Of a DNA stretch of 33,444 nt, positions 5,136 to 33,218 are shown piece by piece. The DNA is taken from NCBI GenBank assembly GCA_022925895.1, contig JAKSYS010000682.1, positions 1-33,444 of the forward strand, read 5' to 3'. Numbering within the stretch: position 1 is the first letter of the stretch; every line of letters begins with the position of its first letter. The notes beneath the pieces are model-generated. The model was not told where the DNA came from and made no database searches. It saw only the letters and a program-made list of their open reading frames with translations. The position numbers and the translations under genes are program-made. The stretch is from Fragilaria crotonensis (lineage: Eukaryota; Bacillariophyta; Fragilariophyceae; Fragilariales; Fragilariaceae).

Positions 5136-5890
5136 ACTGATCGAAGGATGATCTACGTATCACTTGTTGCTCGTTGCCGCCCTTCTTTGTTATGCGCTCA
5201 GTGTTGGGAGCATCCCGAAAGGCTGTCCTTGAAACACCAAGATACCTGGTAGTCATCTCGAGGAATCATGAAATCCAGAATTTCGTAGATACCCCAGTCT
5301 ACGTTGCCGCTACCTAGAGAACTAGTACTGCAATGAGCACACTATGACATGATAGTAGTCTGAGCACAGTGCGACGCGGTTTCTGGCCATGTGTGATTGA
5401 GTTCTGAGCACTGCAAAAAAACTCTACTACAGTACTACAGTACCAGGTAATATGGTGTACGGTGTACGGTGTTTCCGCATTGGGTATGCGGTATGCATAT
5501 ATTGGCGGGTTGTGTGTTTTGTACTACTATCATACTGTAGCGGTTTGCAGAGGTCCTACCGGTAGTATCATTATTATGAATATGGAATCTGGAACACCAA
5601 GTCACACGAGGCCTTGTTTGGCTCAGCATTTCATGGAGGGTTATATGAATCATAAACGTATACTATATCATATGATCTATGATACGATGATACGTATCTC
5701 ACATATACTCCACATATGCAAGACTCACGTCTCCGTAGATTTTACACGTTTTATTACCGGATATGCAAAAATTCCGGAACCCCTCTGCTAGACTTCTATA
5801 ACGGTTTTCATCAGAGCTGTCAAGCAGTGTCTCGCAAACGGTCAAGAATTCAAATAAGTCCCACCAACTAAAAACACAACATCCTGTTTT
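5136..5890. other. Divergent intergenic region between two channel genes
   Basis: This 755-bp gap separates two diverging ion-channel genes and should hold both promoters. It contains short runs of overlapping CTACAGTACTACAGTACC-like words (5430-5450), a GGTGTACGGTGTACGG tandem (about 5454-5470) and AT-rich ATATGATACGAT words near 5660-5705. I see no RNA gene and no credible ORF. Confidence 0.5.
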
Positions 5891-8800: not shown

Positions 8801-9268
8801 AACGTCCTTCTCTTCGCAGCCATCATGGTCTTCTTATCAAGAGGTGCTGAAGACTCCACTCAGGTCGAGGACGCAGAACGACCTGCAAACTCGAGATGGT
8901 ACGACCTTTTCCAACGAATCATGTTTCGACTGCTAGGGACGTCAAAAGAAAAGCCAAAGTTTTCCCGCAAAGCAGAAACTGATGAGTGGAAAGGCCGTAT
9001 CAACTACCTACAAGAAGAGATGGAACGGATCGCTGAGAAGAGTAACGGGCGAATGGAGAGTCAAATCTCAAGCCTTCATTCTGTCATGTCAGAGCCGAAT
9101 CGCGTTGAGGAAGGCCTGTCGAACCTCAGAGCTGAAATCAAGGCAGAATTGAGGGAGATGGAACTCAGGAATAAGGCTGCACTGCAGCAAATTCTAGACG
9201 CCCTTGCACCACGGCAAGCCCTCGGAGAGAGAGCCAGTATTCCGCACTCTGGTAGTCGATACAAATGA
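5891..9268 (+). CDS. TRP/polycystin-like cation channel with ankyrin-like N-terminus and C-terminal coiled coil
   Basis: This is a single uninterrupted 1,125-residue frame. Residues 1-215 are polar and low in complexity. An ankyrin-like helical segment starts near 219 (LHDLCYKAKNVDDLLDFL) and includes KKGRIPLHIFAENNAF. The membrane region begins near 619 (FAATVVFCDFFFLCILMIG) and continues through several helices to a pore-like stretch (ILGNLGGFDEF) and a last helix ending in ILLNILIAIVSDSYEK near 870. That ending is typical of the ion_trans fold of TRP and polycystin channels. Two further hydrophobic segments (about 935-960 and 970-990) follow, which is unusual. A charged coiled coil runs from about 1030 to the end. 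Such channels pass cations across the plasma or endomembranes. The first ATG is used, and Met11 is an alternative. The class is reasonably sure; ion and trigger are unknown. Confidence 0.8.
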   Translation: MPTILFDDWIMKDDQSYQNNRWSSSIVSMPDNIARMEEEGDVHNVDHEEIIGSPTTDPKVRRRGSPAAPPGVTQRKRDKENEVPRVWRDDPVGVSVAARQPDHRRVNFSPTPTVPTPPSLTWKNGAQNRPVLHQQWVYDDHSEAIEIVERKGQSNEEIKNEKATTPLSNKASPHLLRKTSAMKSISSSPSDDSRPMMNRSNAEMELRTSDKIYEPPTQLHDLCYKAKNVDDLLDFLRSPSVRGRDLSLSASTKDKKGRIPLHIFAENNAFAGSLFTPVDADDDFLLIHHMSSYGREQSNDNKLIKFVLEAFLSTNPDGINWRDADGFIPFERSLVQWTRRIYSAKQSRSNRTISSNSRRKSFTTETLHSMWASTTMTVTSAMAWAGRSLHFQAHPRDDESSEMEDGTLGEASVIDPRAPTIFPTAPVRLTSLARCSIKILSLILQQLEEKVAQYSNRRMGNSLPRLESLQSDSFDAAMDSFRSFCQSETAEDVAKQLVAHIAKVPNLVLTLLLIDDEIDRDWVRNTILFKRIAVHQCSVDPWINATLQNSDKAIARRGLDYLRFVSDIVACSKENEDAFLEAIAQLDGFIPSLLALDERDIEEAATTFIVRSVLDKMISRPFAATVVFCDFFFLCILMIGFRCSVNNFLLGEPPEIILKWIYVANTGIFYFVIRELGKCITILERTRQASIYLWSIWNIADILSTVFALASTILIRINFSETLNFDDIDPLRAFLAITTGCLWMRALSILKSLNIQLATFVLAILQICKDILWFLIILGALVACFAQMFYTLLLPAACATEEAYKEASLQCSQSEYYLRLYTILGNLGGFDEFNRAAFTTSFSVFLIVFFSFMVVIILLNILIAIVSDSYEKCLIRSHCLFGRARVLLISELVSFQNLLRTQQSLVQKDGTESSKRCHHHLLNRGWSRGSIGFFCLSVFVIFLWLISEVAGSFYGERYGNLLFSFLSIFVNVLLFAAIMVFLSRGAEDSTQVEDAERPANSRWYDLFQRIMFRLLGTSKEKPKFSRKAETDEWKGRINYLQEEMERIAEKSNGRMESQISSLHSVMSEPNRVEEGLSNLRAEIKAELREMELRNKAALQQILDALAPRQALGERASIPHSGSRYK

Positions 9269-12191: not shown

Positions 12192-13262
12192 TCAGGCGCT
12201 TTTGCAGTCAAAGTAATCGGCTGTTTTGGCGCTAGCCTCGGCAGCTTCCTTCATGATTTGCTGCATAATTGCGTCTACGGTCAGCACGTCATGAATCAAA
12301 CCCTGGGACTGACCAACAAATTGCACACCTGCATCCAAATCTCCATCAATTGTGGCCTTCTCCAAATATTTTGTCGCAGCCCCGAACTGTGCCACCGCAA
12401 AAAGTTTGTCCCATTGAGTCAAAAGACCGGGAAGGACCTTCCAGAGCGGAATGGAGAAGTCCCTCGCCGCCAGCATTGCACGCCACGCCACTACCGGAGG
12501 GAGAGGCGGATGAGCCATTAGTCGCTTTGACAAAGGAGTCTTCAAGACTCTTGCAGAAATACCATCAAAGTTGGACCCGTAGACCGAGTCCGATTCAGTA
12601 GATGCACAGATAGCGTCTTTGGCAGCTTGTGAGAGGGAGCTTTCATGCGTGACGGCAAACCTTGAACCCATTGCAATAGCATCTGCTCCAAGGGACAACG
12701 CAGCTGACAAGCCAGCCCCGTTGGCAAACCCGCCTGCAGCAACCAGCGGAACGTCAGGAAATTGTTGAGCTATACTTGGAATAAGTGAAATGTTGCCAAC
12801 TTCGCCTCCGTGAGCTGCAGCTTCGTAGCCGGTCACCATGAGGGCATCTGCACCGGCATCCAGTGCCGCCTGGGCATGTTGTCGATTCGTTACGGTAGCT
12901 AGCACAGTACCTCCGTAGGAATGAACGGCATCTGCGATCCATTGTGCCTTGCCTAAACTGATGTTGACCAGCGGAACTTGTTCCATCACAGCCACCTCAG
13001 CATTCTCCTTGGCACCTGGCATTAGGAGTGTCGCACCCACACCGAATGTTTTGTCGGTGAGTTCGCGAATTCTTTGGATTGATTGTCGCGTTTCATCCGG
13101 TGACAGTGGACCAGTTGCTAGGATGCCGACACCTCCAGCATTCGACACAGCTGCCACCAACTCAGGTTTGGATATCCAAGACATCCCTGGTAGTAGAATT
13201 GGATATTGGCATTTTAGAAGCTTGGTGAGACGAGTCCTAACGGGAGGAGCAGCAGTCATCAT
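12192..13262 (-). CDS. Nitronate monooxygenase (2-nitropropane dioxygenase family)
   Basis: The 356-residue protein is a TIM-barrel flavoprotein of the NMO/2-nitropropane dioxygenase family, which uses FMN to oxidise nitronates such as propionate 3-nitronate. Visible family features are the N-terminal YPILLPGMSWISKPELVAAVS with NAGGVGILATG, the catalytic-His motif EAAAHGGEVG (His151), the phosphate-binding strands VAAGGFANGAGLSAALSLGA (175-194) and AIAMGSRF just after. The length matches the family. The frame stays open 76 codons upstream without an ATG, so I chose the double ATG at 13262/13259, which places the conserved barrel entry near the N-terminus. No targeting peptide is evident. The gene converges on the three-repeat gene (99 bp apart) and diverges from the MYG1 gene. 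Confidence 0.9.
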   Translation of the reverse strand: MMTAAPPVRTRLTKLLKCQYPILLPGMSWISKPELVAAVSNAGGVGILATGPLSPDETRQSIQRIRELTDKTFGVGATLLMPGAKENAEVAVMEQVPLVNISLGKAQWIADAVHSYGGTVLATVTNRQHAQAALDAGADALMVTGYEAAAHGGEVGNISLIPSIAQQFPDVPLVAAGGFANGAGLSAALSLGADAIAMGSRFAVTHESSLSQAAKDAICASTESDSVYGSNFDGISARVLKTPLSKRLMAHPPLPPVVAWRAMLAARDFSIPLWKVLPGLLTQWDKLFAVAQFGAATKYLEKATIDGDLDAGVQFVGQSQGLIHDVLTVDAIMQQIMKEAAEASAKTADYFDCKSA

Positions 13263-13725
13263 GGTTATCAATGATGTGCAGTTCCTGCCGTCGGTTTCCT
13301 TGATATAATATGGTGATGTGGAGATGTGGAGTGTTGGAAAGATGATTGCGAACCCTGTGACCCATGATGACGCGCCGTCCTGTTTATTTGATTTTTCATA
13401 TGATGGCTTCACAAATTCAATCCCACACCCCTCCCAGCGCTCGATTATCATACTGTCCCTGGGGACTCTGTACTCTGTACTCGAGTACAAGTACTCTCTA
13501 CTCTAGTATACTCAAGTGCAGCTCATTGCTAATAATAGCTATCATACGACTGGAATAAACCGAATGTACATGTGCTCTACCCATACCGTATTACTAGAAG
13601 TACAGTACACGGCATGACATCGTACGCAATGGTACCGTGACGGCCCATATCTATTCAATCACCATGTATCCATATCCAATCATCTGGTCTCGAGTTGTTT
13701 GCTCGCCACTGATCCATCTCAAAAA
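13263..13725. other. Divergent intergenic region
   Basis: This 463-bp gap lies between the nitronate monooxygenase and MYG1 genes. It contains a cluster of GTAC-type words at about 13459-13500 (CTGTACTCGAGTACAAGTAC) and AGTACAGTAC near 13600. No gene is seen. Confidence 0.45.
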
Positions 13726-15448: not shown

Positions 15449-18055
15449 ATGGCGTCAGTCCTATCAAGAACTGTATTGATTGCATTCTGCTCCCTTGCAG
15501 CCGTAAGTTTCTGTCGGGCTGATCGTAGATCATCAAGAATTGGACTTATCAAACCTTGACATCGCCGACCCACCTCGCCTCATCGTCCAGCTATTGACAC
15601 GATGCTGTGAGCCTCGCTATCGGAGCGAAGGTGCATTCGAGCAATTTACTAACTCAATCACAATCGCTGACCTCCATAATTCAGGTCAACTCTTTCACAT
15701 TCGTTGCGAATAGCCCTCATGTCAGACCACAGGCTACCAAGTCGTTCATGGCGACCATCTCTGAAGACACAGCAGCTGCGAGGGCCAAGGCTGCAATGGA
15801 GGCCGAGGCAGCGGAGAATCAACAAGCTGGACAGACTGTTGGAAAAGTGGGCATCAAGGACAACAAGCTAATGGATTTGGGAGGACGACCGTTTCCACTC
15901 TCCATGATTGTGGGTCAGGAAAATATCAAACAGGCACTTCTACTGGCCGCCGTCAACTATCGCATGGGCGGGTTGTCATCTCGGGAGGTAAGGGTACTGG
16001 AAAGTCCATCATGGCTCGTGGTCTCCACCAACTTCTTCCACCAATCGAGGTCCTCAAAGGATCGCCTTTCAACATTGATCCTGAGGGAGAGTGGGGACTT
16101 TACCAAGGCCGACCTTATGAATGGAGGCATTCCTTTGGAAGAACGCGAGACTGAAATCATTCCCACCCCATTCGTGCAGGTGCCTTTAAATGTTATGGAA
16201 GATCGTCTCATTGGTAGTGCCGATCTTGAGGAGAGCGTCAGGTCTGGTAAGACCGTGTTCTCTCAGGTCTTTTGGCAAAGGCTCACCGCGGTGTTCTTTA
16301 TGTCGATGATATCAATCTCCTTGATGAGGAGACCGCAAACATCCTGTTGAATGTCGTTACGGAGGGATTTGTTACCGTTGAACGTGAAGGAATCTCTCTC
16401 CGCTACCCTTGTCGTCCTCTAATCGCTACCTTCAATCCCGAGGAGGCTCAATTGCGGGATCATCTCCTAGATAGAATTGCCATTGCACTTTCGGCCGATG
16501 CTATCAAGTTGGACTTGAATCAACGTGTTGAAGCTGTTGATAGCGTGATCAATTTTTCAGCTTCAGGTGCTCAAGGCAATGTTGCAGGTGAGGATGCTCT
16601 CAAGATTGCCCTCGCCAACGAAGAAGACCTCAAGACTGCCATCATCTTTGCGCGTGAATACATCAAGGATTTGAAGGTTGCTCCATCACAAATTCAATAC
16701 CTGTGCGAAGAGGCTATTCGTGCGGGTTGCCAGGGTCACAGAGCAGAAATTTTCGCTTGCGAAGTCGCCAGAGCAGCTGCCGCTCTCGAGGGTCGCCAAG
16801 TCACCAGCGAGGACTTGCGCCTCGCTGTCAAGCTAGCCATCGCTCCTCGTGGTACTTTTATCAACACCCCGATGGATCAAGACGAGATGATGCCGCCTCC
16901 TCCTCCACCACCACCACCTCCACCTCAGCAAAATTTGGATGAACAGAAGGACGATCAAGACGAGAAGGAGGAGGAAGAAGAGGAAAGGACGAACCAGACG
17001 ACGAAGAGAGAACGAAAATGAAGCTCCTGATGTTCCTGAGGTTCCTCAAGAATTCATGTTTGAAGTTGACGCCACGCCAATAGATCCCGATTTGATTGAC
17101 TTCGCTAGCAGGCAACGAAGCGGAAAGGGGCGGACGTGGCCTTATCTTCTCCCAGGATCGTGGCCGATACATTAAGCCGATGTTGCCAAAGGAAAGGTCA
17201 CTCGCCTTGCTGGTAGGTCTATATTATGGAAACTATTCGTTATCCATGACAATGTTGTCTGATTTACTTCTTCTTTGCTTCACAGTCGACGCCACCTTGC
17301 GTGCTGCCGCTCCATATCAGAAGAGCCGACGTCAACGTGCGATTGGTACAGACAAGGAATCACGAGGAGTTCATATCGAGCAAGGTGATGTCCGCATCAA
17401 GAAGATGGCCCGTAAGGCTGGGTCGCTGATTATTTTCGTCGTCGATGCTTCCGGATCCATGGCACTTAACCGTATGAATGCTGCCAAGGGAGCCGCTCTG
17501 AGTCTTCTCACTGAAGCGTATCAAAGCCGAGATCAAATTTGCTTGATTCCATTCCAGGGTGAAGCAGCCGATGTGTTGCTTCCACCAACCAAATCTATTG
17601 CAATGGCTAGCAGACGATTGGAACAAATGCCTTGCGGAGGTGGATCCCCCCTTGCTCACGCCCTGCAGCTTGCTAGCCTCACTGGTCTTAATGCACAAAA
17701 AAGTGGAGATGTTGGAAAGGTTGTCGTTGTTCTCATTTCCGATGGACGTGCCAATGTTCCGCTTGCCGTATCCATGGGGGATGAATTCGATCCCGACAGC
17801 GACGAGGATTCCAAGGATGGAAAGCCAAGCCGAAACTACCTAAAGGAGGAGGTCATCGCCTGCTCCAAGAGATTGGGAGCACTTCCTGGTTTCAACTTGC
17901 TCTGCATCGATACCGAGAACAAGTTTATCTCTACTGGTCTGGCGAAAGATATTGCCGACGCCGCCCAAGGGAAGTACCACCAACTTGCCAAGGCTGATGG
18001 TAAGGCTATCGCTACTGTGGCGAGCAACGCTCTGAATGCAATTAAGTCAGCATAG
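15449..18055 (+). CDS. CHLD: Magnesium-chelatase subunit D, plastid-targeted, two introns, seven frame changes
   Basis: CHLD works with ChlI and ChlH to insert Mg into protoporphyrin IX in chlorophyll synthesis. Exon 1 (15449-15502) encodes a signal peptide. The intron at 15503-15684 (GTAAGT...TCAG) restores AAVNSFTF, an ASAF-like plastid-import site. The second intron is 17213-17285 (GTAGGT...ACAG), joining to [12 protein letters not shown]. The AAA+ part has Walker A GGKGTGKS (15984-16007), [18 protein letters not shown], Walker [13 protein letters not shown] (about 16293-16328) and [14 protein letters not shown] Pro-rich then acidic linker (16900-17030) follows, and a vWA domain with MIDAS DASGS (17444-17458), GGGSPL and ISDGRAN. 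Frame changes are needed near 15975, 16095, 16265, 16985, 17007, 17127 and 17190; all can be read as losses of one or two bases. Family members usually have a second Leu in [12 protein letters not shown]. Identity is firm; the frame changes are unexplained. Confidence 0.88.
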
Positions 18056-18136: not shown

Positions 18137-19048
18137 CTACGCATCATCTGCTTGGTCAGCACGACGACCAAATACGGTACCAATAACGAATCGCTCAGGC
18201 TTGACCCGTTTCGACATCCGCACGCCCTCTGGAAAAACGACACGATCCAACCTCACCACATCTCTCAGTTGAAGGCCAGTACATTCCAGCTCCAACCTTT
18301 CCGGAATCGGAACTCCTTCCTCGACTGTGCAGCTCACGTAGCGCTTGACGGGGGCAATAAAACCACCGCGCTTCATTGCGGGACTCTCTTCCTCGTTGAC
18401 ATAGACAATTGGGATCTGGATGGGTCTCAAGGCGTGATAGCGCAGATAGTTGACGCAGAATAGTTTATTCTGGATAGGATGTCTCTGTACATTGGTGGGG
18501 ACGACACGGTGCACCGTCCCCTCCGAGTCGGTCTCGTCTTCGAACACCGTCAAGTCATAGACCCGACTCTCAAATGATCGGTGATAAAGATCGAGTTCTC
18601 GCTGGAGCAGTTTCCAAACAGTCTTGACATAAATCTTGGAGCTCTCATCGTCAGAATGAATACCCTTGAACGGATCACCTCCATAGAGAAGACCAGGGAT
18701 TTCAAGGTTGTCGCGAATGTTTCTGCAACGTCGTGATCCCTCTTCTTCAATGGAATGTCGCCGGAAACAACTGATCTTTCGGATATTAAGATGGCTTGCA
18801 TCATCTTTTTCTACAGCTTCATTCGCGACAGCTTTTACAGCATCGTCCACTCGACCAGCAAGTGACAAGTCCTCTTCGGCTTTGAAATTTGCTCGCAAAA
18901 AAGCAGCAATAGTTTCGTTCTTCGCCACATCTTCCGCACTCAGGCCCTGGACAAACTTCCATGGCTCCACGAGTGGGTCAGTACTGAAGAATCGTTTATG
19001 AATACGACGAATTAGCGCTCCATTCCGCAGCAGTCGGCTCATCGTCAT
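18137..19048 (-). CDS. Mitochondrial large-subunit ribosomal protein bL25m (L25/TL5/CTC family)
   Basis: The 303-residue frame begins with a basic amphipathic presequence (MSRLLRNGALIRRIHKRFFS) typical of mitochondrial import. After a helical spacer comes an L25-type domain (SRRCRNIRDNLEIPGLLYGG, then strands including SRVYDLTVFED and VPTNVQRHPIQNKLFCVNYL). A TL5-like C-terminal beta domain follows (IQIPIVYVNEEESPAMKRGG, RYVSCTVEEGVPIPERLEL). bL25 binds 5S rRNA in bacteria; the long TL5/CTC form has this second domain. Two in-frame ATG codons (19048 and 19042) are equally good. Unlike neighbouring MYG1, CHLD and TLC, this frame is unbroken. It converges on CHLD with 81 bp between stops. The assignment is by pattern recognition and fairly confident. 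Confidence 0.75.
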   Translation of the reverse strand: MTMSRLLRNGALIRRIHKRFFSTDPLVEPWKFVQGLSAEDVAKNETIAAFLRANFKAEEDLSLAGRVDDAVKAVANEAVEKDDASHLNIRKISCFRRHSIEEEGSRRCRNIRDNLEIPGLLYGGDPFKGIHSDDESSKIYVKTVWKLLQRELDLYHRSFESRVYDLTVFEDETDSEGTVHRVVPTNVQRHPIQNKLFCVNYLRYHALRPIQIPIVYVNEEESPAMKRGGFIAPVKRYVSCTVEEGVPIPERLELECTGLQLRDVVRLDRVVFPEGVRMSKRVKPERFVIGTVFGRRADQADDA

Positions 19049-19469
19049 GTTGAGGTCCTCGAAGCTTACGTTCCTGTGTGAGTGCGACAGAAGCTGTACG
19101 CTGTGCTGTTGCTACAAGCGTCTGTCCCCCCACACGAAAATGTTTGTCGTCCAAAATCCAAACCAGCACCAATTGGACGGTTGAATGCAAGACATGCTAC
19201 ATGCTGTCACTGCTGTACTGGACACATGACACATGTACTTCCTTTCATCACAGCATCACCGATTCGACTTATATGATCTCTACTGTCCGTGTGTAGCCTG
19301 CTCGAGTGAGCGACCAGCTTGTATGTGATGCACTCCTCCAGGCTCTATAGAGCACTTACATTAACTAAACTCATTATCTGTTTATGTAGCTGGACTTTGT
19401 AAACTCTACCCTGAGGATGTGAATGCCGCAATCTTGTCTCATGGCCACAGCGACCAATGCATGTAACAA
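19049..19469. other. Intergenic region upstream of the bL25m gene
   Basis: This 421-bp gap holds the bL25m promoter and the 3' flank of the TLC gene. I see short repeats of ACACATG/TGTACT type but no gene or RNA. Confidence 0.4.
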
Positions 19470-20853: not shown

Positions 20854-21824
20854 CTACTTATGAATTTCCTCAAGCATGAAATACTGCTTGGCTTGGAGGA
20901 CCGCCTCAAGTCCAAAGTCCGAAAGGGACTTACGGAAATCATCCTTCTCCCACCGCAAGGTGGAGAAGTCTGATTCTACAGTACAAGTCCCTGGAAATAG
21001 CGTGGCGATGACACCACAAAACTCGGCAAGATTCTGGAAACTATCTCTTCCGATGACGTTCCATGCCTCAGAGAAAGATGCTGTACTCTTAGTGGAATCA
21101 ATGCTGTTCTTCAGCACCTCATCATTGCGGTAGTGCATGATAAGTGCACGGTGCTCATCAGCAATAAGATCGACGTGCACATCAGAGTATTGATGCTCCA
21201 GCCGAAACTTGAATGCACAGACCTGGCGAAGAAAATCACCGGGGCGGGTCTTGACCAATGCATTTGGTAGGATAGGCGGAAGCGCATTTTGATCAATAAA
21301 TGCTGTATTGTCCTCAGTGCGTAGCACGCAGATGTTGTGAATGCGATCGCAAGCCACGGTGAAGACACGTCCAATGTCAGTGAGCAACTTGTCTTGAGTT
21401 GACGCATCGGCTTCCTCGATAATTTCTTCTACCCAACTTGCCAGACCAACAAGATACTCGCGAATGCTGACCTTCAGCACTGAAAACGAACTGCTTGACA
21501 CGTAAGCTCCAGCATGTTCATGGAGTTCAATATCCGCAGGTGAAAGAGGACCTTGAACACCAACATCGTCAACAAAAGTTGATATCAACTTTTCAAATGC
21601 TGCATTTTGCTGCGACACCAACGTCGTTGCACCTTGTATGAAACGGAAAGTGATTGCAGTGTAGTTGGTGAATGCATTCATTGCTACAAGGTAAACCCAC
21701 CAGATCCGAGAAGGCGAAGTTGCAGGATTCTGCGATTGAATGTAGTTGAGCAGTGCCGGGCGATGCAACTTGAACCAGCTTGTAACTTTGTAGGATGATA
21801 GCCATCTATTCACAATACGTGGGC
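20854..21824 (-). pseudogene. hAT-like transposase, C-terminal part (split by insertion)
   Basis: The frame is open from the insertion junction to the stop at 20854, about 320 residues. It begins CPRIVNRWLSSYKVTSWFK, continues through WWVYLVAMNAF and FRFIQGATTLVSQQ, and ends with a hATC-like dimerisation segment (CTVESDFSTLRWEKDDFRKS...GLEAVLQAKQYF). This follows directly from the N-terminal part encoded at 33218-31688. A TGA inside the inverted repeat of the inserted element lies immediately upstream, and the GTG at 21813 is not a believable start, so this half has no start of its own. No frame change is seen within it. Confidence 0.75.
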
Positions 21825-21826
21825 AA
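21825..21826. other. Target-site duplication (AA), left copy
   Basis: AA directly precedes the CATCAG end of the inserted element and AA also follows its other end (31686-31687). Removing the element plus one AA joins the hAT transposase in frame (minus strand: GCT TGC CCA). Two bases alone could match by chance; the frame restoration is the supporting evidence. Confidence 0.6.
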
Positions 21827-21838
21827 CATCAGAAGGTG
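21827..21838 (+). repeat. Terminal inverted repeat, left
   Basis: CATCAGAAGGTG is the outer edge of the inserted element and is identical to the reverse complement of 31674-31685. Confidence 0.7.
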
Positions 21839-22271
21839 CAATATGGTAACTAAATTTTCACATGTTCAGTGTTACCGGATAATGGTGTCCGTCTTTCCTG
21901 TTCTTACAATGTACATGGTCGAGTAAACAAATATGTTAGCTTAACAATATATTGTTACTTTAAACCATATTAACAACATATTGCCTTGTTTCATAAACAT
22001 TTATGTTAAGATACTTTGCTTCTTGTTACTTTCGTATAACGACAATACACCATCTTTGTTAAGTGATTCCGTTGTAAAATGACCATATTTGTTGTCGTTT
22101 CTGTTGCTTAGTAGATATATATGCTGTTGTCTATGTTTCTTTGTAACTATATATGTTAATCCTAAATTCAATTGTACAAATCACAATTGTTGATTAAATC
22201 CACCTATATTGTTTCATTACGAGTTGCTGATGTTGTTGTCACTTCTAACGAGAAGGCACCCGATGCAACGT
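21839..22271. repeat. AT-rich left subterminal region with recurring motifs
   Basis: This non-coding stretch repeats words such as AACAATATATTG, AACCATATTAACAACATATTG and TATGTTA. The right subterminal region has a related arrangement (ACTTTTAACCATAT at about 31577-31590 followed by TAACAATATATG; on the left, ACTTTAAACCATATT near 21957-21971). Such repeats often bind transposase. No gene is seen. Confidence 0.5.
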
Positions 22272-23863
22272 CTAGTCATCATCTGAGTCCCAGTCCGCCT
22301 CGACAGGCACCATTGCTTCCGCTCTCTCCAACGTATTATTGGGCGCTGCACCACCTGCATCTAGCTCGTCATCCTGATTATCACCAGCATTCTTCTTTCC
22401 AGCGCTTGCCCTGCAGAAACGCATCAACTCCTTTTCCATTTGCTCGGCTTCCGGACACGCCCTGTCCTCTTCAACCACCTTGCGCAATGCATTGAACTGG
22501 CTAATTCCGTCTGACTCCACCCACTGTACTTGCATTGTCCCGCTTTTTTGGTATACTTTCCCGCCATTCTTCTTGCTTTCTTTTGTATTCCCTGCCCGCT
22601 GCCTGTTTCTGCTTCTGTTGTTGTGCTGTTGTTTTCTGTTCTTGGTCCAGTGCCTCCTGCCTCCTCCTCCGCTACGACTTTCCACTTCTCCAAGTAATTG
22701 TCGATTAGCAACAAACCGAAGGCTTCGTCGCTCACACTCACAATTTTGATCCATTGCTCTCTCGCGCCGCCGAAATGAGCTGTGTTGTTTTGCATTTCTC
22801 AAGACGTTCGCACCACAAACACATTCCAAGAAGTTGTTGAAGAACCAGAAGAACGCCCTTTTTCCCTTTCTGACGTAGATCTCCTGAGCTTGCAGAATTC
22901 CTCGAATGTGAAGAACTCTTCCCGCGCTTTTGAAGTCTTTGATTGCATCCCTTGCAATTTGGGAGCGGACTGTTCGCAAGTACTTCGTTTTTGGTTCAAC
23001 GCCCTAGTGAAACATTTTTCGTATGTCAATTGAAACACGAACGGATTCTTGGGCCTCTCCACCTCTCGCACCTTTTGAAAAGCCTTGGTGAATGACGCTT
23101 GACTGGTTACAAACTTGATCCTACGGAACAAGTTGTTTTTGACAAATATCGTAATCCGCTGAGCCACATTCTTCTCCACTGTCGGAACTTCCAACTCTGC
23201 ATTAAACTGCAACTCCCGCGGCCTGTAATCATTTGTTGCTCTCCTTGGGGGCTTTGACGCCTTTGAAGTTCCGTCGTCCTCGCTCGGAGGATCAGCCGCA
23301 CCTTCCTGGGCACGGCGGCTCGACTCCTTACGATTCTGTTGCTGACGTTTCAAGGAGTTGCTGCGACGACGAGAATCCTCGTCATCGCCCGATGATTCGT
23401 CGTCATCTGGTGAGTCATGCATAGCATCGGGGGTTCGAGGAACTTTCCCCCCCGCCTCGGTATCATCATCCCTGTCGCCATCAGTAGATTTGTAGGACGA
23501 GTCATCATGATCCGAGTCCTTTCGTTCAGAACCCGGGTTGTTGCGTGGTGGGGGCGGTGCCCTTTTTGCTTTTGCCCTGTTTGTTTTTTTCCTCTTTGCC
23601 TTGCCGCCCGAACCAACAACTCGCTTTTTTCCCGGTTTCTCCAGCTCAACTGTCTCCACAGGCTCCGTTTGCTGTACTGTCTCCAATAGTTTTGCACGTT
23701 TTGCCGCCTTCCTTTTCTCCTCTTTCAGTTTCCTCTTTGTCCGCGCCGTTGGTGTTTCGGGTTCACCGTTCCTGTCTAGACGAACGCGTCCGCCTTGTCC
23801 TTGTTTGCTCCGAGTGCGCGTTGCTGGTGAGGATTCCAGAATGTTTGTCACCACTGGAGGCAT
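22272..23863 (-). pseudogene. Element-borne gene of unknown function, frame broken
   Basis: The first segment starts at the ATG at 23863 (the upstream TTG is not used). It encodes a Lys/Arg-rich N-terminus with nuclear-localisation-like clusters (RTKRKLKEEKRKAAKRAK) and then long acidic Asp/Ser stretches. A better-structured part follows (RITIFVKNNLFRRIKFVTSQ, FQLTYEKCFTRALNQKRSTC). It then alternates between two frames: EEFFTFEEFCKLRRSTSERE in one, RAFFWFFNNFLECVCGANV in another, and DEAFGLLLIDNYLEKWKVV with GKYTKKAGQCKYSGWSQ in a third. It finally reaches LRKVVEEDRACPEAEQMEKE and an acidic C-terminus ending WDSDDD. At least four frame changes are needed. The family is unknown to me. It diverges from the next gene across 1.2 kb of AT-rich DNA. 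A DNA-binding accessory protein is a guess only. Confidence 0.55.
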
Positions 23864-25029
23864 GACGGCTGCAATGGACAAGTACAAAAAGCAAGCAATG
23901 GGTTAGAAACAAGTCTGACTGGTACGTTTCAATTCGCAGCAAGTGTGAGTTCGATAACAAGATTGCAATTTTTAGTCATGTACTCTTATTTTTGAATCAG
24001 ATAACAGTTTAGGAAGCGTGCACTTGTTGTCCTGTTTGTTCATCATGTAACTGTACATGATTTGAACATAAATTTATTATGTTCAATTTTAACAATAATT
24101 TAACATGTGTATGTCATTTATGTTGTTTGAATGTACTTGCGTGTTCACTACATAACTTCATAAATGTACAGTTTCATCTTCTTGGATGGATATGTGTAAG
24201 TTTTTGAATATATACGACATGTGTGTAGTGCAGTCTTGTTTTTGCATGGGCGGCCTCGCCAATCATGTATCGTCAGTACTGGTAAATGTCGTACGCAGCA
24301 GTGGTACTACTAGTTTGTGTATATATGTTTATTAGTACGGTGTATACAAATATATTTATTAACATATCTTTGAATATGTGTGTCGCGTTGAATACATAGG
24401 TGGATTATGAATCTTATGACAGTTTGAGACACGGATCAAAAAAAATTGTCTACTGTTGATACGTATGCTGCAGTACAACGGCCATGTAGCAGTATGCAGT
24501 CCAGTCATGGGAAACTAATAAATCATACATACATGTAAATAAGCATTCTCTTTTTTTCTGACTATTGAACTTGATTAACACAAATATTTATGCAATGTGT
24601 ATGTCATTTTATTTTACATATACACACATAATTATTTAACATTGCTACGAATTAAATCTGTATATGAAAACCATGTATATATGGCTGTACTCGTGCAATT
24701 ACTCTAAGTAAATGCACCTCATTTAAAGGTCTTGGTTGGAGTTTTTATGTGTGAAGTTTCCTTTTTTTGCATAGCACGTAGTGTATCTTGTTTTGCCTGT
24801 TTTCTGCGCGCACTGACACCAAAAATCACAATCTGGTGTCAGAGTACTTCTATGAAGTACTTCGTTCATTGATTGTGTTTCGCAACATAACGTCGCCGTC
24901 GGATCGTTCTCGCTTCCTTTGAGACGAATAGACAGTCCGCGCCAGGAAGCGTGTTGATTGCTTTGTCGAAAAGGACGCGGAACTGGCATTGTGCGGCTCA
25001 CTACCTGCCAGGAAGCAGTAGAGAGCCCG
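23864..25029. other. AT-rich divergent spacer inside the inserted element
   Basis: This 1.17-kb spacer separates the diverging element genes. A 15-bp direct repeat (atgtgtatgtcattt) occurs at 24105-24119 and 24595-24609, with other ATGTGTAT and AACATAAATTTATTA words nearby. A GTAC-type cluster occurs around 24280-24310. It probably contains both promoters. Short frames here have no recognisable protein. Confidence 0.45.
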
Positions 25030-26612
25030 ATGTCGCCAAATCGACGCGACGTTGATTGCGTTGGCGAGGAGGTTGTTGTGGAGAACCGGATGACGGTTGC
25101 AGTGGAGAGGAAGGTTGTGGGAGTGGGGTTGGCGAAGACGAAGAAGCTCGCAAAGAAGAGGAAGTTTGCGAAGAGGAAGGCTGCGGAGACCGGGAATAGG
25201 ACTTCCCCAACTATGGCGTGTGTCAGGAACCTGGGGAACTCGCCACGTGTTCCGGGAGCAAGTGTTGGGGCGGACGGTGGGAAATTCCTTCCTACTGGGC
25301 GCGACGAGAGGCAGAATCGCCCAACTCATCAGCGCATTATGACGCTGTTGTCCATGGCCGTTGTTCCGGAGGAGAGGATTGCATTCAGGCGGAGATTTGT
25401 GAAGGCCATCGGGGTGGTGATAGGGAGTGCCGCGAATTCTTGTGCTTTACTCCCGTGAGCGTCATTGCAAAGGCTTTTAGATGCAAGCCGTTTCAATTGC
25501 GTTCGGCTGCCGACATGTTCCCAGAGTCCGGACTCCAGTCGGAGTTCCTCAACGAGTTCTACGTGATGGACGTGATACTCAATCGGGCTCCTTCACCGGC
25601 CGTTTTGACTGGCGGTGGGAAGGGAGGAGGGAGTGGTGGTGGCGGCCGTCGTTGGCATCGCGATGACTGCGATGCAGTTCGTCATGCCCTGTCACGCAAA
25701 CCGGAAGACATTGGCCCTGGGATGGATCATTTCTACCGGGCTGCAATTCTGTTCCTACCTCAGTGTGGGGTGTTCTATTGTCACCGTGACCGTCACGTTG
25801 GGGATGCTGGCGTGCCAGGCACGCTGAGAGCATACGATATGAGCTGGCTCCGCTTGCAGAGGGTGGAGGGAACAGAACACGACTTCCCGTTGTATGCCTT
25901 TGGCGGTGACAGCTTTGTGAGGCGGTTCTATTTTGATCACGGTCTAGGCGACAACCGCCGTGTTTCTGCGTGGAGGATCTCCACGGGGTACCTACCCAGT
26001 TCCCTACAGAATCGGGTGGTGTACAGGGCCGTTCACAATAGTGATGCTGAATTACCTGCGTTACCACCGGATTTCATTGCTGGCGTTGACCTGCGGACTG
26101 TCCCTGCTGACTACCGCGCTCATGAATTCCGCAACAAACTCAAAAATTCTAGTAGTGCGAAGTTTGATTGCCGGCATTACGTTGACGGCAGCCACCACTA
26201 CAATCTGCAGGAGTCTTGCTGGATCATTGATCCAGAAGAAACTCACTTTGTTGATGTTCACGTTCGCGTCGATGGAATTCCAAACCGTGAGTCTGTCGTT
26301 GCCATACGGAACGTAACGAAGATCAGTACGTGCGATGACCACCTTGAGTTGCTGGAGCGGTTGACGTCGCGGTGTCGAGAGATCCGAGTGTCGGGGGCGA
26401 AGGGCACTGCCAGGGCTAAGTCGTCCGATGTCGGTTCAATGTTTGCACTGGGCACCAGAATCGAGAAAAAAGAGTCCCCAACAGGCCTTGCTGTTCATGG
26501 CAAAATTCCGTACGCAGCCAATGGATGTGTTTTGGATAGTGTCCTCCGGGGTCTCGTGGTTGACTTGGCAACCCTTGGGAGTCGCTGTTTCCTGTGGTCT
26601 ACTCCGTGGTAA
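25030..26612 (+). pseudogene. Element-borne gene, N-terminal and middle part (function unknown)
   Basis: A first segment from the ATG at 25030 encodes a basic Lys-rich stretch (KTKKLAKKRKFAKRKA), likely a nuclear-localisation signal. After a frame change near 25200 the protein continues to 26612: a Cys-containing motif (GELATCSGSKCWGGRWEIPS), ECREFLCFTPVSVIAKAFRC, NEFYVMDVILNRAPSP, YCHRDRHVGDAGVPG, FGGDSFVRRFYFDHGLGDN, LPPDFIAGVDLRTVPADYR and YNLQESCWIIDPEETHFVDV. I recognise no named domain. Base composition is GC-richer than the flanking transposon ends. The frame changes again after about 26590 to enter an Asp-rich linker (codons at 26716-26749). It is treated as the upstream part of the gene whose C-terminal part lies at 26750-27718. 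Confidence 0.5.
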
Positions 26613-26749
26613 GGGACACCGAGGAGAACTCTGGACTGAGTCCGGTGCCACCGATGGATGGCGTTGCCCTTCCGATTGGGGGTCGTGCGGGGTGGGTCGG
26701 ATTGCGACAACGAGAATTGTGATGATGATGATGACGATGACGAATGACG

Positions 26750-27718
26750 ACGAAGAGACGATGGCGATTGCCTTCGCGAGAAACTTCGGAGGAAAATGGA
26801 AGCGTTGGAGCGTAGACAACGGGTCGGATACACCGTCGACATGAGCATAAACCTGGGCAATTCCTCGCACTACGACGTGAACGATGCCTCGCAGGGCTAT
26901 AGTGTGTGGACAGAGGAGGTGCTGGGCCTTGGGAAGAACTGGTATTTTGTTATCCCCAGTGTGTGTGGCCTGCGACCGGGCACGAAAACCAAGTTCAGTG
27001 GCATGGCGGTGAAACTTGGCCACGGCGTGGCCATCAGCTGGGATGGCAGGGTGATCCGGCACTGCACGTCAGTTTCCTGTCCAGACGGGATGGAACGTGG
27101 GTTTGTTGCCAGGAAGAGGGAGTCTCCCTTCCGAAATTATCTTTATGGAACTTTCACGGCAGCGAAGGAAAAAATTGTGGAGGCGGGGCGCGCCGCGTGT
27201 GCCGACTGTTTCTGTCCCCAAAAGCCCTCTCCTGTTAAAGCGGTGGTGGATCGCAAGAAGCGGCCAAACAGGAGGAGGAGAAGACCCCGTGGGGGGGGCC
27301 TCGGATTGAATCCAGGGATGCCGTGGTTGCAGGTTGTCCTGCTGTTGAGTTCGCATCTGTCGAGCCGACAGTTGAGCTCCCCTCCGTCGTGCCGCTGGTT
27401 TGTTGGAAGGGAGCTGCTTGTGGCGAGTGGCCATGCTGTTCCGACAAACGGAAGAAAGGGGATCTTGGTCGTGATTCTCCGTCCCATGCCGACTGGCAGA
27501 ATGAAGATGCCACCGATGATGGTGGCAACAAGTGGCGATTCCGTTCTCTAAATTGGGTGCCGGCTGTGGGCGATCGGGCACCCCGCTGCACAGATGCTTG
27601 CGTGGACAAGGAAACACGTACAGCTGGTGGGAGTGTGGCTTTTGGTGGCTGGCGGGTGCGGCCAACTGACCTGGAGGTTGGTGGAAGGTACACAATACCG
27701 AGGAAACAAAAAAAATAA
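26750..27718 (+). pseudogene. Element-borne gene, C-terminal part with Fe(II)/2-oxoglutarate dioxygenase-like HxD...H pattern
   Basis: Within the open frame from 26796 the segment SINLGNSSHYDVNDASQGYS contains an HYD triad (26868-26876). After WYFVIPS and FSGMAVKLGHGVAISWDG, a distal His occurs in RVIRHCTSVS (27060-27062), 64 residues after the first His. HxD, then a G-x-x-I-x-W-D-G strand leading into His, is the metal-site layout of double-stranded beta-helix Fe(II)/2OG dioxygenases, including TET/JBP base oxygenases. An Arg 12 residues after the distal His could contact 2-oxoglutarate. A Lys/Arg-rich tail follows. The frame shifts at or near a run of eight G (27291-27298) into a segment ending TIPRKQKK at the stop before 27718. 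It converges on the transposase gene. Motifs are seen; enzyme class is inferred; substrate is unknown. Confidence 0.5.
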
Positions 27719-27791
27719 ACAACATGTTCGATTTGAATTCAGAAACTACTCCTTCTACTGGTTCTATCATTGATGGCACCCAAAGGACTGC

Positions 27792-30700
27792 CTACCCCTT
27801 GTTTGTCTTCGTGGGAGCTTCCCTTCTGCGTTTCAAATTCCCTGTGGACTGTTGTGTGGCAGTGGCCTTCACAGCCTTCGCAGCCTTTGCCGCCGCTTTC
27901 TCTGTGGCGGTGTCCTCCCTCTTCTTCTTGGCAGCGACCTTTTCGGCCTTCTTTGCAGCAACCTCGGCTCCAAACTCTTCGGGGTCTTGACCCTATGCAC
28001 TCCCGGCCACTTGGCAGGCGGCTGACAAATTCTTTCTCGTACTCCTCTTCAAACCAAGTGTCGTCGTCGACGTCGTGTTCCAAATCGTGATGACACTTAT
28101 TGATGAGAGAATCCCACGCTTGGCCACTCCGCCTTCCGACGGATCAAAAACAGGTGACACCGCTTGCGCCTCGGCGCTTTCTCTACTCCAAATGGGGGGA
28201 CGTCTTCGATGCCGAGTACTGGAGATAAGATTGACTTGACGTCCACCAGGAACAAGGTGGGATGTCTCTCATCGGGTGAGTGGAAATGTGGGGTGTAGCG
28301 CCCTATGAGAGTGTTCGGAGTGTCGAGGTCGCCAACGGAAACTGGATCAAACGAATGGGCGACAGCGTACAATCCGGCTTCCAAATTTTTCTGCCCATTT
28401 GCTTTGATGTTAATGCGCTCTCCGTTTGGAAGCCCGCGAAGATCAACAAAGGTGTGGATGAATGCTGGGTAATTGCGAGGGTATCCTTCCCACTTGATCA
28501 TTGCGCTGTCGTTCCAGGCTTTGCCATCGTAACAGGGGTGAGCGCGGTACTTGTTGCCCTTACGGTCGGTAAACAATGTGAAGCATGGAAGTGAGTGCTG
28601 TGGCACCTTGGGCAAGCAGTGTTGACTCAGGAAGTCCATCACTCGGGTTGAAAGGTGGGCTGTCTCCATGTTGTCACCGGGAGACGGGTGAGTCCAGCGG
28701 CACGCTGAAAATTCATCACCAGTCTTCCATGAAAGGTTGAAGTGTCGGCCACCCTTGCCGTCAACAAGTAATGCAACGGGTTGACCTGCTCTGTTGCAGG
28801 CATCGCTTTTTTATCGGTGTCCATGTCCGCGGAAGCAAGCGATACAACAAGATTCTCAACGTAGCGATGGGCAGCTTGCTTGGTGAATGAAACGGCTCGT
28901 TTCTGGGTGTTCCGTGATGTTACCTTTGCGAGTGGAATGTGGGCTGACTCCGCGTACGAACTGTTTACATTCTCTGGGACGCCGTGGTCAAGAATGTCCT
29001 CGCACAGATGCAGGACCAAATGTGTCTTGATTGTGTTGTTTCCCATTGCTCCTGGGCGAGGTGCCACTTCAGCAACAACACGCATCAGCCACTGAACTGC
29101 CACATGCGAACGCTTCACCATTTTCTTTGGAATGGATGGTTGCTTCATCCATTGATGCCACACTAGAAGAGCAGTCACGATGTCAATCCAATCGGTGACA
29201 TGGTTTTCGTAACGAAGCCTTTGGTCGGGAACCCCAAGTCTCGGTTCCTTCTTCCCGACATCAAAGATAGCGCGGAAGCAGGTGGTGTGCAACGCAAATA
29301 ACTTCACCAAAGGCACCCCGCCATCTCGTGTCCCATCAGATTGGTTCCTGATGAGAATCCCTTGGGAAAGTTGGTTCGCGGGACGTCGCGGTCACTCTGT
29401 CTCGACAGTTTGCGGCCCAATTTTGCACACAGTTGATCGTACTCCTTCAATGCGTTGGACTTGGGACCGGCTTGGGTGGAGAAAGCCTGCAGGCAGTATT
29501 TGAACCAACCAAGAGAAATCAAGTGCAGCATCTCACCTGGACAGGCACCAAAAATGCCCCGCTGATTGTGCAGACCAAAACGAACCCTGGCAAAGCCGTT
29601 TTAAGGTAGGTCTGTGACAGCAATTGGAGCTCGTTGGTAAAACCCTTGCGTACAAGGGTGTCCATTTTTCTCGGAAGGCGGTGGGGAAACTTAGACTTCG
29701 AGTAACCAGTCAAGTATGTAGGGCACTCACAGATGCGACAAAGTTGTTTGATCTGTGAAAATCGGGCGGTGTAGTGCCCACATAGGCGGTCGTGACCCTC
29801 TGTGTCACCAATGATGAACGGGACATACGGGTGGAACACGACGGGGTGCATTGTTCCGTTGTACTGCAGATTCCATCGGAAGCCGTACTTTTGTAACTGC
29901 AAAAAACCAGACTCTTCGAGAATAAACTGGATCTGCATGTGTGTCTCGTTGAGGAGTAATGTCGCCCAGCTGACATTTTCATCAGGGCACCGAATTGGGT
30001 TGTTGACGCGGTGCACATCCTTTGGCAAGTCTGCGGGTGCATTGAACTTGGGATCAATTTCGGCGTCCGATGGGAGGTTGGCGGGGGTGCTGTGATTGAT
30101 GTATCCAAGGATGCGCATGGCGCTTGGAAGGCGGCGCGTAATGTGGTTCAAAAGGCCGTGCGAGACTGTTATGGGCTCCATCTGGAGCCGTCCGGCCATG
30201 TCGATGTGGGTCTTGTCCATCGCCATGACACAAGGTAGGAGCATGTCAACACCGGGGTCCTTTATCAGGGCATCGTACGTCTTTCTGTAACAACGACCTG
30301 TGTGTATGTCACCAACATCGGACGATGCTTGTGGTGCAACAAACGGATCCTTTGCTTCATCAAAAAAATAATTTGTGTCCTGATTAAGTGTGGGACATGA
30401 GAGAAGCGACGCGAACACCTCGCGGGCATCAAAAAAAACCATGGACACTATCCTCTGCGTGTAAGGGAGATACAATTTCTTCTCCTTGGGGATCAGTCCA
30501 TTCATATTATACCTTTCGTACAACTTGGCGATGACCTTCTCGCGAGTTGGTTGAAAACCCTCGCGGAACACATGACCACTTGCGTTTGATTTGGCAGCCC
30601 ACTTCAGTATGACGGTAAATGCTTTGAGAGGACAGTGCAGCTTTCTAAGGAGATCCAATAACTCAATTAGGACCTTCTCCTCCTGGGAAAATCGCGCGAG

Positions 30701-31152
30701 ACCTAGTGGATTCGCTCGCAGCTTGAACAGTTCCAAACACAAATCCAACACACCAAGATCAGGACCTTCCTCGTCCTCTTCTTCAGTTTCTTGAAGGCAT
30801 CCTGATTGCCAGCGTCGCCATCATCGTTGTCTTCAAACATCACAAAATTGTCATCGTCAACTGCGTTCAAATCGTTGACGTGATGCAGAGGATCCCCCGC
30901 CTCTCCTCTTACAGATGCACCGCTCCCACGGAGTGAAGTCCTCGAATTCGGGAAAGTGGAACGATTTCCGCCTTGCGACGCATTAGTTGTGTTCGCAATG
31001 CTGTCGTTCGGGATGGTGGGTGCCACTGTTGCAGATGCTGCATTGACACGTGACATGTAGAATGATTTACATGCCAAATTTTGAGCGAGGTGGGACTGAA
31101 GCCTCTTGAAACTCTTTCCACAAACGGCACAAGCATTAGTTGACATTGACAT
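27792..31152 (-). pseudogene. Plavaka/KDZ-like transposase, broken by at least five frame changes
   Basis: It starts at the ATG at 31152 with a C2H2 finger (CAVCGKSFKRLQSHLAQNLAC). A frame change near 30790 leads into the catalytic part (30751-29600). A likely first acidic residue is in LLPCVMAMDKTHIDMAGRLQ, followed by MEPI. A likely second is in PFIIGDTEGHDRLCGHYTAR, with Cys-rich LCRICECP after it. A shift near 29590 gives RVRFGLHNQRGIFGACPGEM and LSRQSDRDVPRTNFPKGFSS. A shift near 29310 gives VPLVKLFALHTTCFRAIFD and NSSYAESAHIPLAK, where the third acidic residue is probable. Shifts near 28120 and 28000 extend the frame through INKCHHDLEHDVDDDTWF to an Ala/Lys-rich helix ending KTNKG at the stop at 27792. 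It catalyses cut-and-paste movement in intact relatives. The superfamily is inferred from the C2H2 finger plus these motifs. Confidence 0.65.
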
Positions 31153-31673: not shown

Positions 31674-31685
31674 CACCTTCTGATG
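31674..31685 (-). repeat. Terminal inverted repeat, right
   Basis: CACCTTCTGATG is the exact reverse complement of 21827-21838. AA (31686-31687) follows it, matching AA before the left end. Confidence 0.7.
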
Positions 31686-31687
31686 AA

Positions 31688-33218
31688 GCTGTGCCCATGT
31701 CAGCAATGAGCTTATTCTGTCGACTTAGGTGAGTGATAAATTTCAACATAACAGAGAAGAATGCATCGTTTACCACTGTTGTCATGATGTGCTCCATGAC
31801 AAGATCAAGCTGGTGAGCGCCGCACCAAATCCGAATCATAGGACACTTTTCGTGCATTGACCTTTGCAGTCTTGTTACTACTCCAGCTGCTCGGCCCGTC
31901 ATGTTCCTTGCGCCATCCGATGCGACGCCCAGCAGCGCAATCTTCCAATGAGGACAAACAACAGATAAGAATTTTTCGATCATGTCATGCATCACTTCAC
32001 CTGTATGCCGATCATGAAGTGGCAGAGCACATCCGTGAAGATTGTAGATGTCCCTGCTACTCCTGGAGTACACACGAAAACGTAGATCAAGGTAGGAAGT
32101 GCTTTGATGAGTTGCGCTGTCAATGGCGATAGAGAATGCCCACGATTGCTCCAGGACATCAGATATCCGCTGCAGATTGATGGCGCAGCCAACACGAGCA
32201 AACATGCTTACTTCTTGACGATTGCAGACCATTGCTTGTTCTCGTTAATCCCATAACATCTGCAGTATCCCTGAGGATAGCTTGTGGCGTTCTGAATGTG
32301 ACACCATTTGAGATGAAGCGAAGGACGAGAGCCATTACTGTCTTCTTGGAGCTTGGTATTGTGACAATATACTGATAGTTGTCACGGTCATTGGCATCGT
32401 CATCATTATCACTGTCCTCATTGTCAACAACAGCTATTCCTTCTCCTTGCTGCTCATCATCTGCATCATTGCCATCATTTGCAATCACAATCACCTTCCG
32501 TTTCTTGAATGCAGACAGCGCTTGCTCCTTCACCTGAAGTGCTGTTTCTCGGCGATTCTTCTGAACTGCTGCATACTCAGCTGCACTGCCAAAGCAGGCA
32601 GCAGTGCTATCACCGTCACCATCTTCGACTTGATTTTCCTGAAGCAGATGTGAAGGGGTGGCATAGTACATGTCGCCGATGATGACATCAACAATGTCCT
32701 TGTCAATTACATGAACAGTTGGCTTTTCAATTGTGACGGCGGCATTCCTTCTTGAGGAGCAGGACAAAAGGAGAGACAACTACAGTTTGAAAGTGATCCA
32801 TGACAGAGGAGCACTTCTTGCTCTGTGTATCATCATCCTTCTTGGTGAAAAATAAATCACATTGCTTGACACGCGAGAAGGGCTTTGTGAAAGACATCCA
32901 GGACTTCTTGACAGCTTCATACTCAGCCCATTTTGAGGGATGTTGCTTCTTCATATGAGACTCTATGTTGTCGTATCTGAAGGGAGCAACCCACGACTGT
33001 CCAACGGCTGGAGGCTTGCGCTTGGCACCAACTCTCTCTTCGCGTCCAAATACAATGCAGAAACGACACCGGAGTCCATTGACCACGCCAGTATGGAGCT
33101 TGCGAGATGCGATACTCAGGCCTAGCTTGATATCATTCTCCTTGATGTAGGCACATGATCGAAGTGCAGCAGAGGAAGAAGAAGCACCGCCACCAGTAGA
33201 GCTGGCGTTTGCTGTCAT
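31688..33218 (-). pseudogene. hAT-like transposase, N-terminal part with BED-type zinc finger (split by insertion)
   Basis: It starts at the ATG at 33218. Residues about 50-95 form a BED-like C2H2 finger (LRCRFC...HMKKQHPSKWAEYE). After a frame change near 32730-32780 comes IEKPTVHVIDKDIVDVIIGD, then an acidic linker. A second change near 32210-32250 leads to REVSMFARVGCAINLQRISD, SIAIDSATHQSTSYLDLRFR and the RNase-H-like core GVASDGARNMTGRAAGVVTR with WCGAHQLDLVMEHI. This is cut at ADMGTA by the inserted element. The remaining half resumes at 21824. The protein would bind the hAT ends and excise the element. The insertion plus two frame changes mark it as inactive, unless the frame changes are errors or undetected introns. 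Confidence 0.72.

Follow-up and report, generated by a model that had tools for sequence, protein, structure and literature searches.

We analysed a stretch of 33,444 nucleotides from the diatom Fragilaria crotonensis (contig JAKSYS010000682.1 of assembly GCA_022925895.1, hereafter the window), in which a preliminary description had proposed a dioxygenase-like gene carried by a transposon. The genome comprises 62 Mb in 881 contigs, and its 19 matches to the silicon-transporter family PF03842 (best E value 4e-193) support the diatom label. An element bounded by terminal inverted repeats (TIRs) occupies positions 21827 to 31685 of the window, and holds three decayed genes, namely a Plavaka-like transposase, a gene of unknown function, and between them the gene for a candidate oxygenase (Table 1). 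With a probability of about 0.7, we read the element as a Plavaka-like cut-and-paste transposon whose cargo is an Fe(II)-dependent oxygenase of the TET fold, most likely oxidising 5-methylcytosine (5mC) in or near the DNA of the element.

The window copy of the oxygenase gene is broken. Its coding stretches are spread over three frames (24958-25458, 25200-26612, 26748-27551, and 27239-27718), with no single open reading frame (ORF). The catalytic segment nevertheless contains what the preliminary description had reported, that is, an HYD triad, followed by the strand GVAISWDG and by a distal His 64 residues past the first His.

Table 1. Features of the window, with the element and its genes first and the flanking sequences last.
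Feature	Positions	Strand	Remarks
Target site duplication AA, left copy	21825..21826	.	2-bp duplication flanking the TIRs
Left TIR	21827..21838	+	CATCAGAAGGTG, 12-mer, pairs with right TIR
Third gene, decayed	22272..23902	-	ORF of about 600 amino acids and of unknown function in longer copies; BLASTP to ORF of the C30 element, E 4e-34 and 4e-28 (two frames)
TET-like oxygenase gene (predicted), decayed	25030..27718	+	ATG at 25030, frames broken, longer relatives elsewhere in the genome
C-terminal catalytic segment (putative)	26820..27200	+	HYD 26868-26876 (H 26868-26870, D 26874-26876); Asp five residues past the His 26883-26885; distal H 27060-27062
Plavaka-like transposase gene, decayed	28097..30820	-	AMDKT D, GDTEGHD D, CRICECP C2C, HLVLH H3H, YAES E
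Right TIR	31674..31685	-	inverted match of CATCAGAAGGTG
Target site duplication AA, right copy	31686..31687	.	2-bp duplication flanking the TIRs
Interrupted 509-amino-acid frame, two halves	20854..21826 and 31688..32244	-	no Pfam match
Host gene	5858..9268	+	ion-channel-like
Host gene	12192..13502	-	nitronate monooxygenase-like
Host gene	17096..18055	+	VWA-domain
Host gene	18137..19111	-	ribosomal L25p/TL5-like

Relatives of the oxygenase are numerous in the genome. A six-frame search with a 470-residue piece from the window gave at least 101 matches (the best 90 of 373 candidates were scored), and a search with the 122-residue C-terminal domain gave at least 150 domain places out of 297 candidates, nine of these 150 places starting past the H-x-D. 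In 14 of the 28 loci first fetched, the H-x-D...H segment lies within an unbroken frame of 693 residues or more. The proteins fall into subfamily A, which includes the window gene, and subfamily B, with frames of up to 1494 residues; the two are 29-34% identical. We aligned 25 long members picked for length, 13 from A and 12 from B. Dropped beforehand were near-duplicate or truncated loci (L013, L015, L022, L025), loci whose frame is broken ahead of the distal His though the H-x-D is present (L024, L028), broken or partial ones (L026, L027, L001-L004, L006-L008), and two pieces of the window copy, P0001 and P0002, the latter of which holds all three residues. In two of the rows that were kept, L038 and L040, the frame is lost past the distal His. 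In the numbering of L019, a subfamily-A member, the residues H518, D520, D523, W574-D575-G576-R577, R580, and H581 are invariant in all 25 rows. The HYD residues and the distal His, on whose conservation in relatives the earlier proposal had been staked, are thus kept in every chosen row. The ratio of nonsynonymous to synonymous substitution rates (dN/dS) of the C-terminal domain could be computed for 18 listed pairs and lay at 0.07-0.28 in 17 of them, which points, as a trend only given saturated synonymous sites, to purifying selection on the oxygenase protein.

Structures were predicted with AlphaFold for one member of each subfamily. The L019 model (741 residues, 25-row alignment) has a mean predicted local distance difference test score (pLDDT) of 75.8 and a predicted template modelling score of 0.78, and the model of the subfamily-B member L032 (1137 residues) has values of 63.8 and 0.61, respectively. 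Most rows are common to the alignments behind the two models, which are therefore not fully independent. Between residues 501 and 630 of L019, the pLDDT per ten-residue block is mostly 87-96, and the block with H581 scores 92. Foldseek returned 22 matches in the PDB for L019 at E ≤ 0.001, of which 21 are TET2, CcTet, or CMD1, and the last is 6ie3, a methyladenine demethylase. Structural alignment of L019 with VIA-align ranked TET2 first (Z 18.2 over 304 residues at 5.1 Å), followed by NgTET (15.0), CMD1 (15.0), and CcTet (14.9), and then by FTO (10.7), ALKBH3 (10.6), and PHD2 (10.5). For L032, the nine best of 37 Foldseek matches at E ≤ 0.001 are CMD1 (top), TET2, and CcTet, and nearly all of the other 28 are FTO. 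VIA-align gave Z-scores of 16.9 for TET2, 14.7 for CMD1, and 14.3 for both CcTet and NgTET; its 16 best rows all belong to the TET family (Z 12.6-16.9), and FTO follows at 10.2. These predictions indicate a double-stranded beta-helix of the TET type in both members, as the preliminary description had anticipated. Together with the triad kept in relatives, they support its central claim of a dioxygenase-like transposon cargo, and suggest that the oxygenase may work like a TET. Its further suggestion, that the N-terminal half forms a separate unrecognised domain, probably does not wholly hold, as the alignment with TET2 spans residues 16-636 of the L019 model and that with NgTET residues 125-632, these figures being the first and last aligned residues only.

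Several members carry additional sequence. In subfamily B, L029, L030, L032, and L040 (C122, C829, C466, and C285, respectively) have an extra C-terminal region behind a low-complexity linker; in L032 a part of this region, at about residues 951-1010, is modelled with a moderate pLDDT of 68-82. L009 (C34:84200-87600) has a long run of YDDN repeats in frame ahead of the H-x-D segment, and some other members have acidic low-complexity inserts at about the same place. A separate set of fold matches came from predicted viral structures in BFVD. Two unnamed proteins, A0A516LZ85 (E 1.4e-7) and A0A516M562 (E 3.0e-7), match the TET-like fold, as does A0A076FGU3, a dioxygenase of a virus of the alga Aureococcus (E 1.5e-3). 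The family profile picked out 30 pattern stretches in viral contigs and 23 in prokaryote genomes, and no relative was confirmed in either set.

We then considered the vehicle that carries the oxygenase gene. The 12-mer of the TIRs occurs 193 times in the genome, versus 7 times for a reversed control pattern, and duplications of 2 bp were found in nine of ten other TIR pairs examined, with 3-bp duplications in none. A genome search with the joined flanks of the window element retrieved just the two window halves and no intact copy at another place, so the inference of an empty site depends on the 2-bp duplication together with the unbroken 509-residue minus-strand frame that is restored when the element and one AA are removed. 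Among the first 100 of the 193 places there are 27 plus/minus pairs less than 20 kb apart. Eleven of these pairs span 8-13 kb, and ten of the eleven enclose the HxD domain. Nine other pairs lie 1.9-2.5 kb apart (C55, C58, C111, C134, C173, C209, C215, C223, C235), several of them near-identical in length, and look like internally deleted non-autonomous derivatives.

The transposase was assigned by its Pfam match. PF18759 (Plavaka) matched the window fragment 29519-30820 at E 1.2e-6 and two long transposase copies above the cut-off (E 1.1e-7 and 3.4e-7); a third long copy, associated with subfamily B, scored 19.8 bits (E 5.2e-4), under the cut-off of 26.3. The D, D, and E residues, together with the C2C and H residues that are features of the CMCT clade, were recognised by eye when the three window pieces were aligned with the three long copies. 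The preliminary description had likened the element to the oxygenase-bearing KDZ (Kyakuja, Dileera, Zisupton) transposons of fungi. A diatom parallel to fungal oxygenase-bearing transposons does emerge, and the TET-bearing Plavaka elements described for two fungi in parts of a recent survey (PMC12730594) are even closer to it; the KDZ identity was set aside, since Plavaka PF18759 was matched and no KDZ family appeared in the Pfam output for the scanned window ORFs and the long transposase copies.

The genes of the element keep company throughout the genome in a fixed arrangement. The HxD domain was found within 8 kb of 53 of the 85 merged transposase places, against about three expected by chance, and the two are tail to tail in 52 of the 53 near cases. 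The third gene, which lies at the element end opposite the transposase, is within 8 kb of the HxD domain at 45 of 71 genome places, and head to head in all 45. These counts used 101 of 112 rows for the transposase and 71 of 81 for the third gene, short second fragments being omitted, and the third-gene remnant of the window is not among the rows. Long copies of the third gene lie at L061:7698-9479 and L062:7974-9785; no Pfam family scored above the cut-off in these two copies. The host genes that flank the element are all ordinary by their products (Table 1), and the 509-residue frame cut by the element may itself be a mobile gene.

The host genome also bears on the presumed substrate, 5mC. 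We found 13 matches to C5 methyltransferase domains in the genome. Among six aligned element copies, C-to-T singletons fell on 48 of 2533 CpG sites compared with 67 of 7915 other C sites, about 2.2 times as often per site (odds ratio 2.26, p 4e-5, a comparison made within the element), and other changes were not enriched at CpG (p 0.32). This excess lends weak support to CpG methylation of the element copies. In Phaeodactylum, also a diatom, methylation is described, in the portions of PMC12344493 used here, as lying mainly on, or being limited to, transposons.

The conserved residues suggest how such an enzyme could work. The H-x-D and the distal His would bind iron through H518, D520, and H581. 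We take the corresponding metal histidines to be His1382 and His1881 in TET2 and His229 and His279 in NgTET1. Five residues past the first His (H+5) stands D523, an Asp in 25 of 25 rows. According to passages of PMC7854593, the N4 of the flipped-out 5mC is contacted by Asp350 in CMD1, which is five residues past His345, by Asn1387 in TET2, and by Asp234 in NgTET1. A part of PMC11040006 adds that the H+5 residue favours 5mC and clashes with N6-methyladenine (6mA) in conventional TETs, and that CcTet has Gly331 there. Because an Asp occupies H+5 in every row, the spacing points to recognition of 5mC as in conventional TETs, and the invariant Asp would contact N4 of the flipped-out base as in TET2, NgTET1, and CMD1. 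The oxygenase would then oxidise 5mC in or near its own element DNA, and the transposon could benefit through weaker methylation-based silencing or through DNA prepared for transposition.

A number of observations weigh against this reading. By sequence the oxygenase could not be placed in the Tet_JBP family (PF12851): no Pfam family, Tet_JBP included, scored above the cut-off in 12 long members, no PF12851 match was obtained in the genome at E ≤ 10, a search whose misses are not proof of absence, and a profile search of PDB sequences returned no TET. Single sub-cut-off Pfam matches in four of the 12 long members (E 0.036-0.22; E 0.036-0.25 over all oxygenase pieces scanned) and two unrelated PDB chains, a designed pore (E 0.03) and a p-aminobenzoate synthetase (E 0.09), were taken as chance. 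The Foldseek TM-scores (template modelling scores) of the 21 TET-family rows for L019 are low (0.19-0.46 when normalised to the target, with root-mean-square deviations of 7-14 Å). Confidence also falls around the metal site: the L019 blocks holding H518, D520, and D523 have a pLDDT of 70 and 74 and the block before the distal His 78, and the L032 block with H591 has 62. Synonymous sites are saturated in most dN/dS pairs, and only two listed pairs have a dS below 1, with a dN/dS of 0.14 (L017/L018) and 0.57 (L036/L038, of which L038 is out of frame past the distal His). In the aligned rows there is no evident equivalent of the base contact His1904 of TET2 or His297 of NgTET1, and the 13 rows of subfamily A, that of the window gene, have no Arg conserved past H581. 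Among the matches listed, 32 of the 85 transposase places have no domain within 8 kb. The element shows no CpG depletion, with an observed-to-expected ratio of 0.94 against 0.91 and 0.65 in its flanks.

The missing Arg bears on the co-substrate. In the sections of PMC7854593 drawn on here, 2-oxoglutarate (2OG) is bound at its C5 carboxylate by an Arg past the distal His, Arg289 in NgTET1 and Arg1896 in TET2; in CMD1 the Arg is present but unused, and vitamin C is taken instead of Arg-bound 2OG. The diatom proteins might accordingly have a TET fold with other chemistry, be it another co-substrate in place of the TET-type use of 2OG, such as ascorbate, as in CMD1, or a different modified base. 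Such an enzyme would suit the lack of a conserved Arg in subfamily A, Foldseek ranks CMD1 first for L032 of subfamily B, and a passage of PMC12730594 allows that divergent TETs of transposons may have other activities. We consider it unlikely nonetheless. Each of the 12 rows of subfamily B carries an Arg 7-9 residues past the distal His. R389 and R421 are invariant across the rows, and the column of Lys615 shows Lys in 24 of 25 rows, although the frame is lost there in L038 and L040 and the Lys of L040 is a chance match; these three residues could bind 2OG. The residues that bind 2OG are, moreover, characteristic of subfamilies rather than universally conserved, as stated in the same sections of PMC7854593. 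An enzyme that may employ 2OG in the manner of a TET remains our preferred reading.

An N-demethylase of the AlkB/FTO type, acting on 6mA or on alkylated DNA or RNA and not on 5mC, is quite improbable. FTO, ALKBH3, and 6ie3 come next in the structural comparisons, and 28 of the 37 Foldseek rows for L032 are non-TET. TET-family chains, however, come first in both Foldseek lists, and in both models they score Z 12.6-18.2 versus at most 10.7 for FTO, AlkB, and PHD2; the invariant Asp at H+5 is of the kind said to clash with 6mA in the part of PMC11040006 cited above.

We hold it very improbable that the transposon retains a catalytically dead protein with a DNA-binding or structural role. The broken window copy would agree with such a protein, and the moderate pLDDT of the H-x-D loop and the mostly saturated synonymous sites strengthen this alternative at the expense of a working TET-fold oxygenase. 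Against it, the metal ligands are invariant in all 25 chosen rows across two subfamilies of only 29-34% identity, and most of the listed pairs have a dN/dS far below 1. A chance H-x-D...H pattern without function has a negligible probability, since the motif, although HxD-x(50-70)-H occurs in 8 of the window's 58 stop-to-stop frames that reach 120 residues and is weak evidence when bare, exceeds chance by the invariance of the triad in the 25 relatives and by the TET-like predicted fold of two members.

Judging from the models, the gene is best read as a TET-fold oxygenase, orphan by sequence, that is borne by Plavaka-like transposons in a eukaryotic lineage different from fungi. A bolder extension is possible, and we offer it tentatively: the proteins may form a branch of the TET fold that current sequence families do not capture, carried to well over 100 copies by Plavaka-like elements and having a co-substrate pocket different from the TET2 one, and this branch may write a new base beyond erasing 5mC. 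The transposon DNA of the diatom would then carry a mark of the transposon's own making.

Transposon-borne TETs are known from fungi, where methylation silences repeats, and the diatom has the same partnership, the same transposase type, and the same termini. The shared alliance of TET and Plavaka suggests an ancient association, a transfer between kingdoms, or repeated capture. As this case shows, such enzymes can escape sequence profiles. The predicted structures suggest that an enzyme made by the transposon may rewrite the very marks that silence the elements, and the diatom proteins supply definite candidates for the role of an active eraser or writer of methylation. No report of a TET-type enzyme in diatoms was found in the literature searched. 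The word 'diatom' is absent from Kojima 2025 (PMC12730594), a text search of Hoguin et al. on diatom methyltransferases turned up no passage on a TET enzyme, and the portions of PMC12344493 used here describe no diatom TET.

Among characterised enzymes, human TET2 is the best VIA-align match of both models (Z 18.2 and 16.9), and shares with the diatom proteins the H-x-D...H arrangement and a polar residue at H+5. It differs from them in sequence (9-13% identity); the diatom proteins have 63-64 residues from His to His and, in subfamily A, lack the conserved Arg past the distal His. CMD1 of Chlamydomonas reinhardtii, which converts 5mC to 5-glycerylmethylcytosine with vitamin C (PMC7854593, in the passages used), resembles them in fold (Z 15.0 and 14.7), in its algal host, in its Asp at H+5, and in its His-to-His spacing (52 versus 63 in the diatom). 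The diatom enzyme is transposon-borne, whereas those passages mention no transposon for CMD1. CcTet of Coprinopsis cinerea, of the AG type and linked to Kyakuja, is a relative of transposon-encoded enzymes and is also similar in fold (Z 14.9 and 14.3), but its Gly331 at H+5 allows 6mA, as the cited part of PMC11040006 has it, where all 25 aligned diatom rows show Asp.

The closest known system is found among fungal transposons. The portions of Kojima 2025 (PMC12730594) available here describe TET/JBP genes on eleven fungal DNA transposon lineages, including Plavaka in two agarics, and name Agaricus bisporus and Gymnopus confluens as hosts of the TET-bearing Plavaka (PlavakaB), which has the termini 5'-CATCA..TGATG-3' and duplications of 2-3 bp. 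The H-x-E that these portions give for transposon TETs of the PE type is not seen in the diatom proteins, which have H-x-D in 25 of 25 rows. In comparison with PlavakaB, the element described here lives in a diatom, its oxygenase shows no similarity to Pfam Tet_JBP that sequence searches could detect, at least 150 domain places were scored in one genome, and a third gene of about 600 residues is present in a fixed order. With PlavakaB, as far as the consulted portions describe it, it shares a Plavaka-type transposase and an oxygenase of predicted TET fold in one TIR-bounded unit, with CATCA..TGATG termini and 2-bp duplications.

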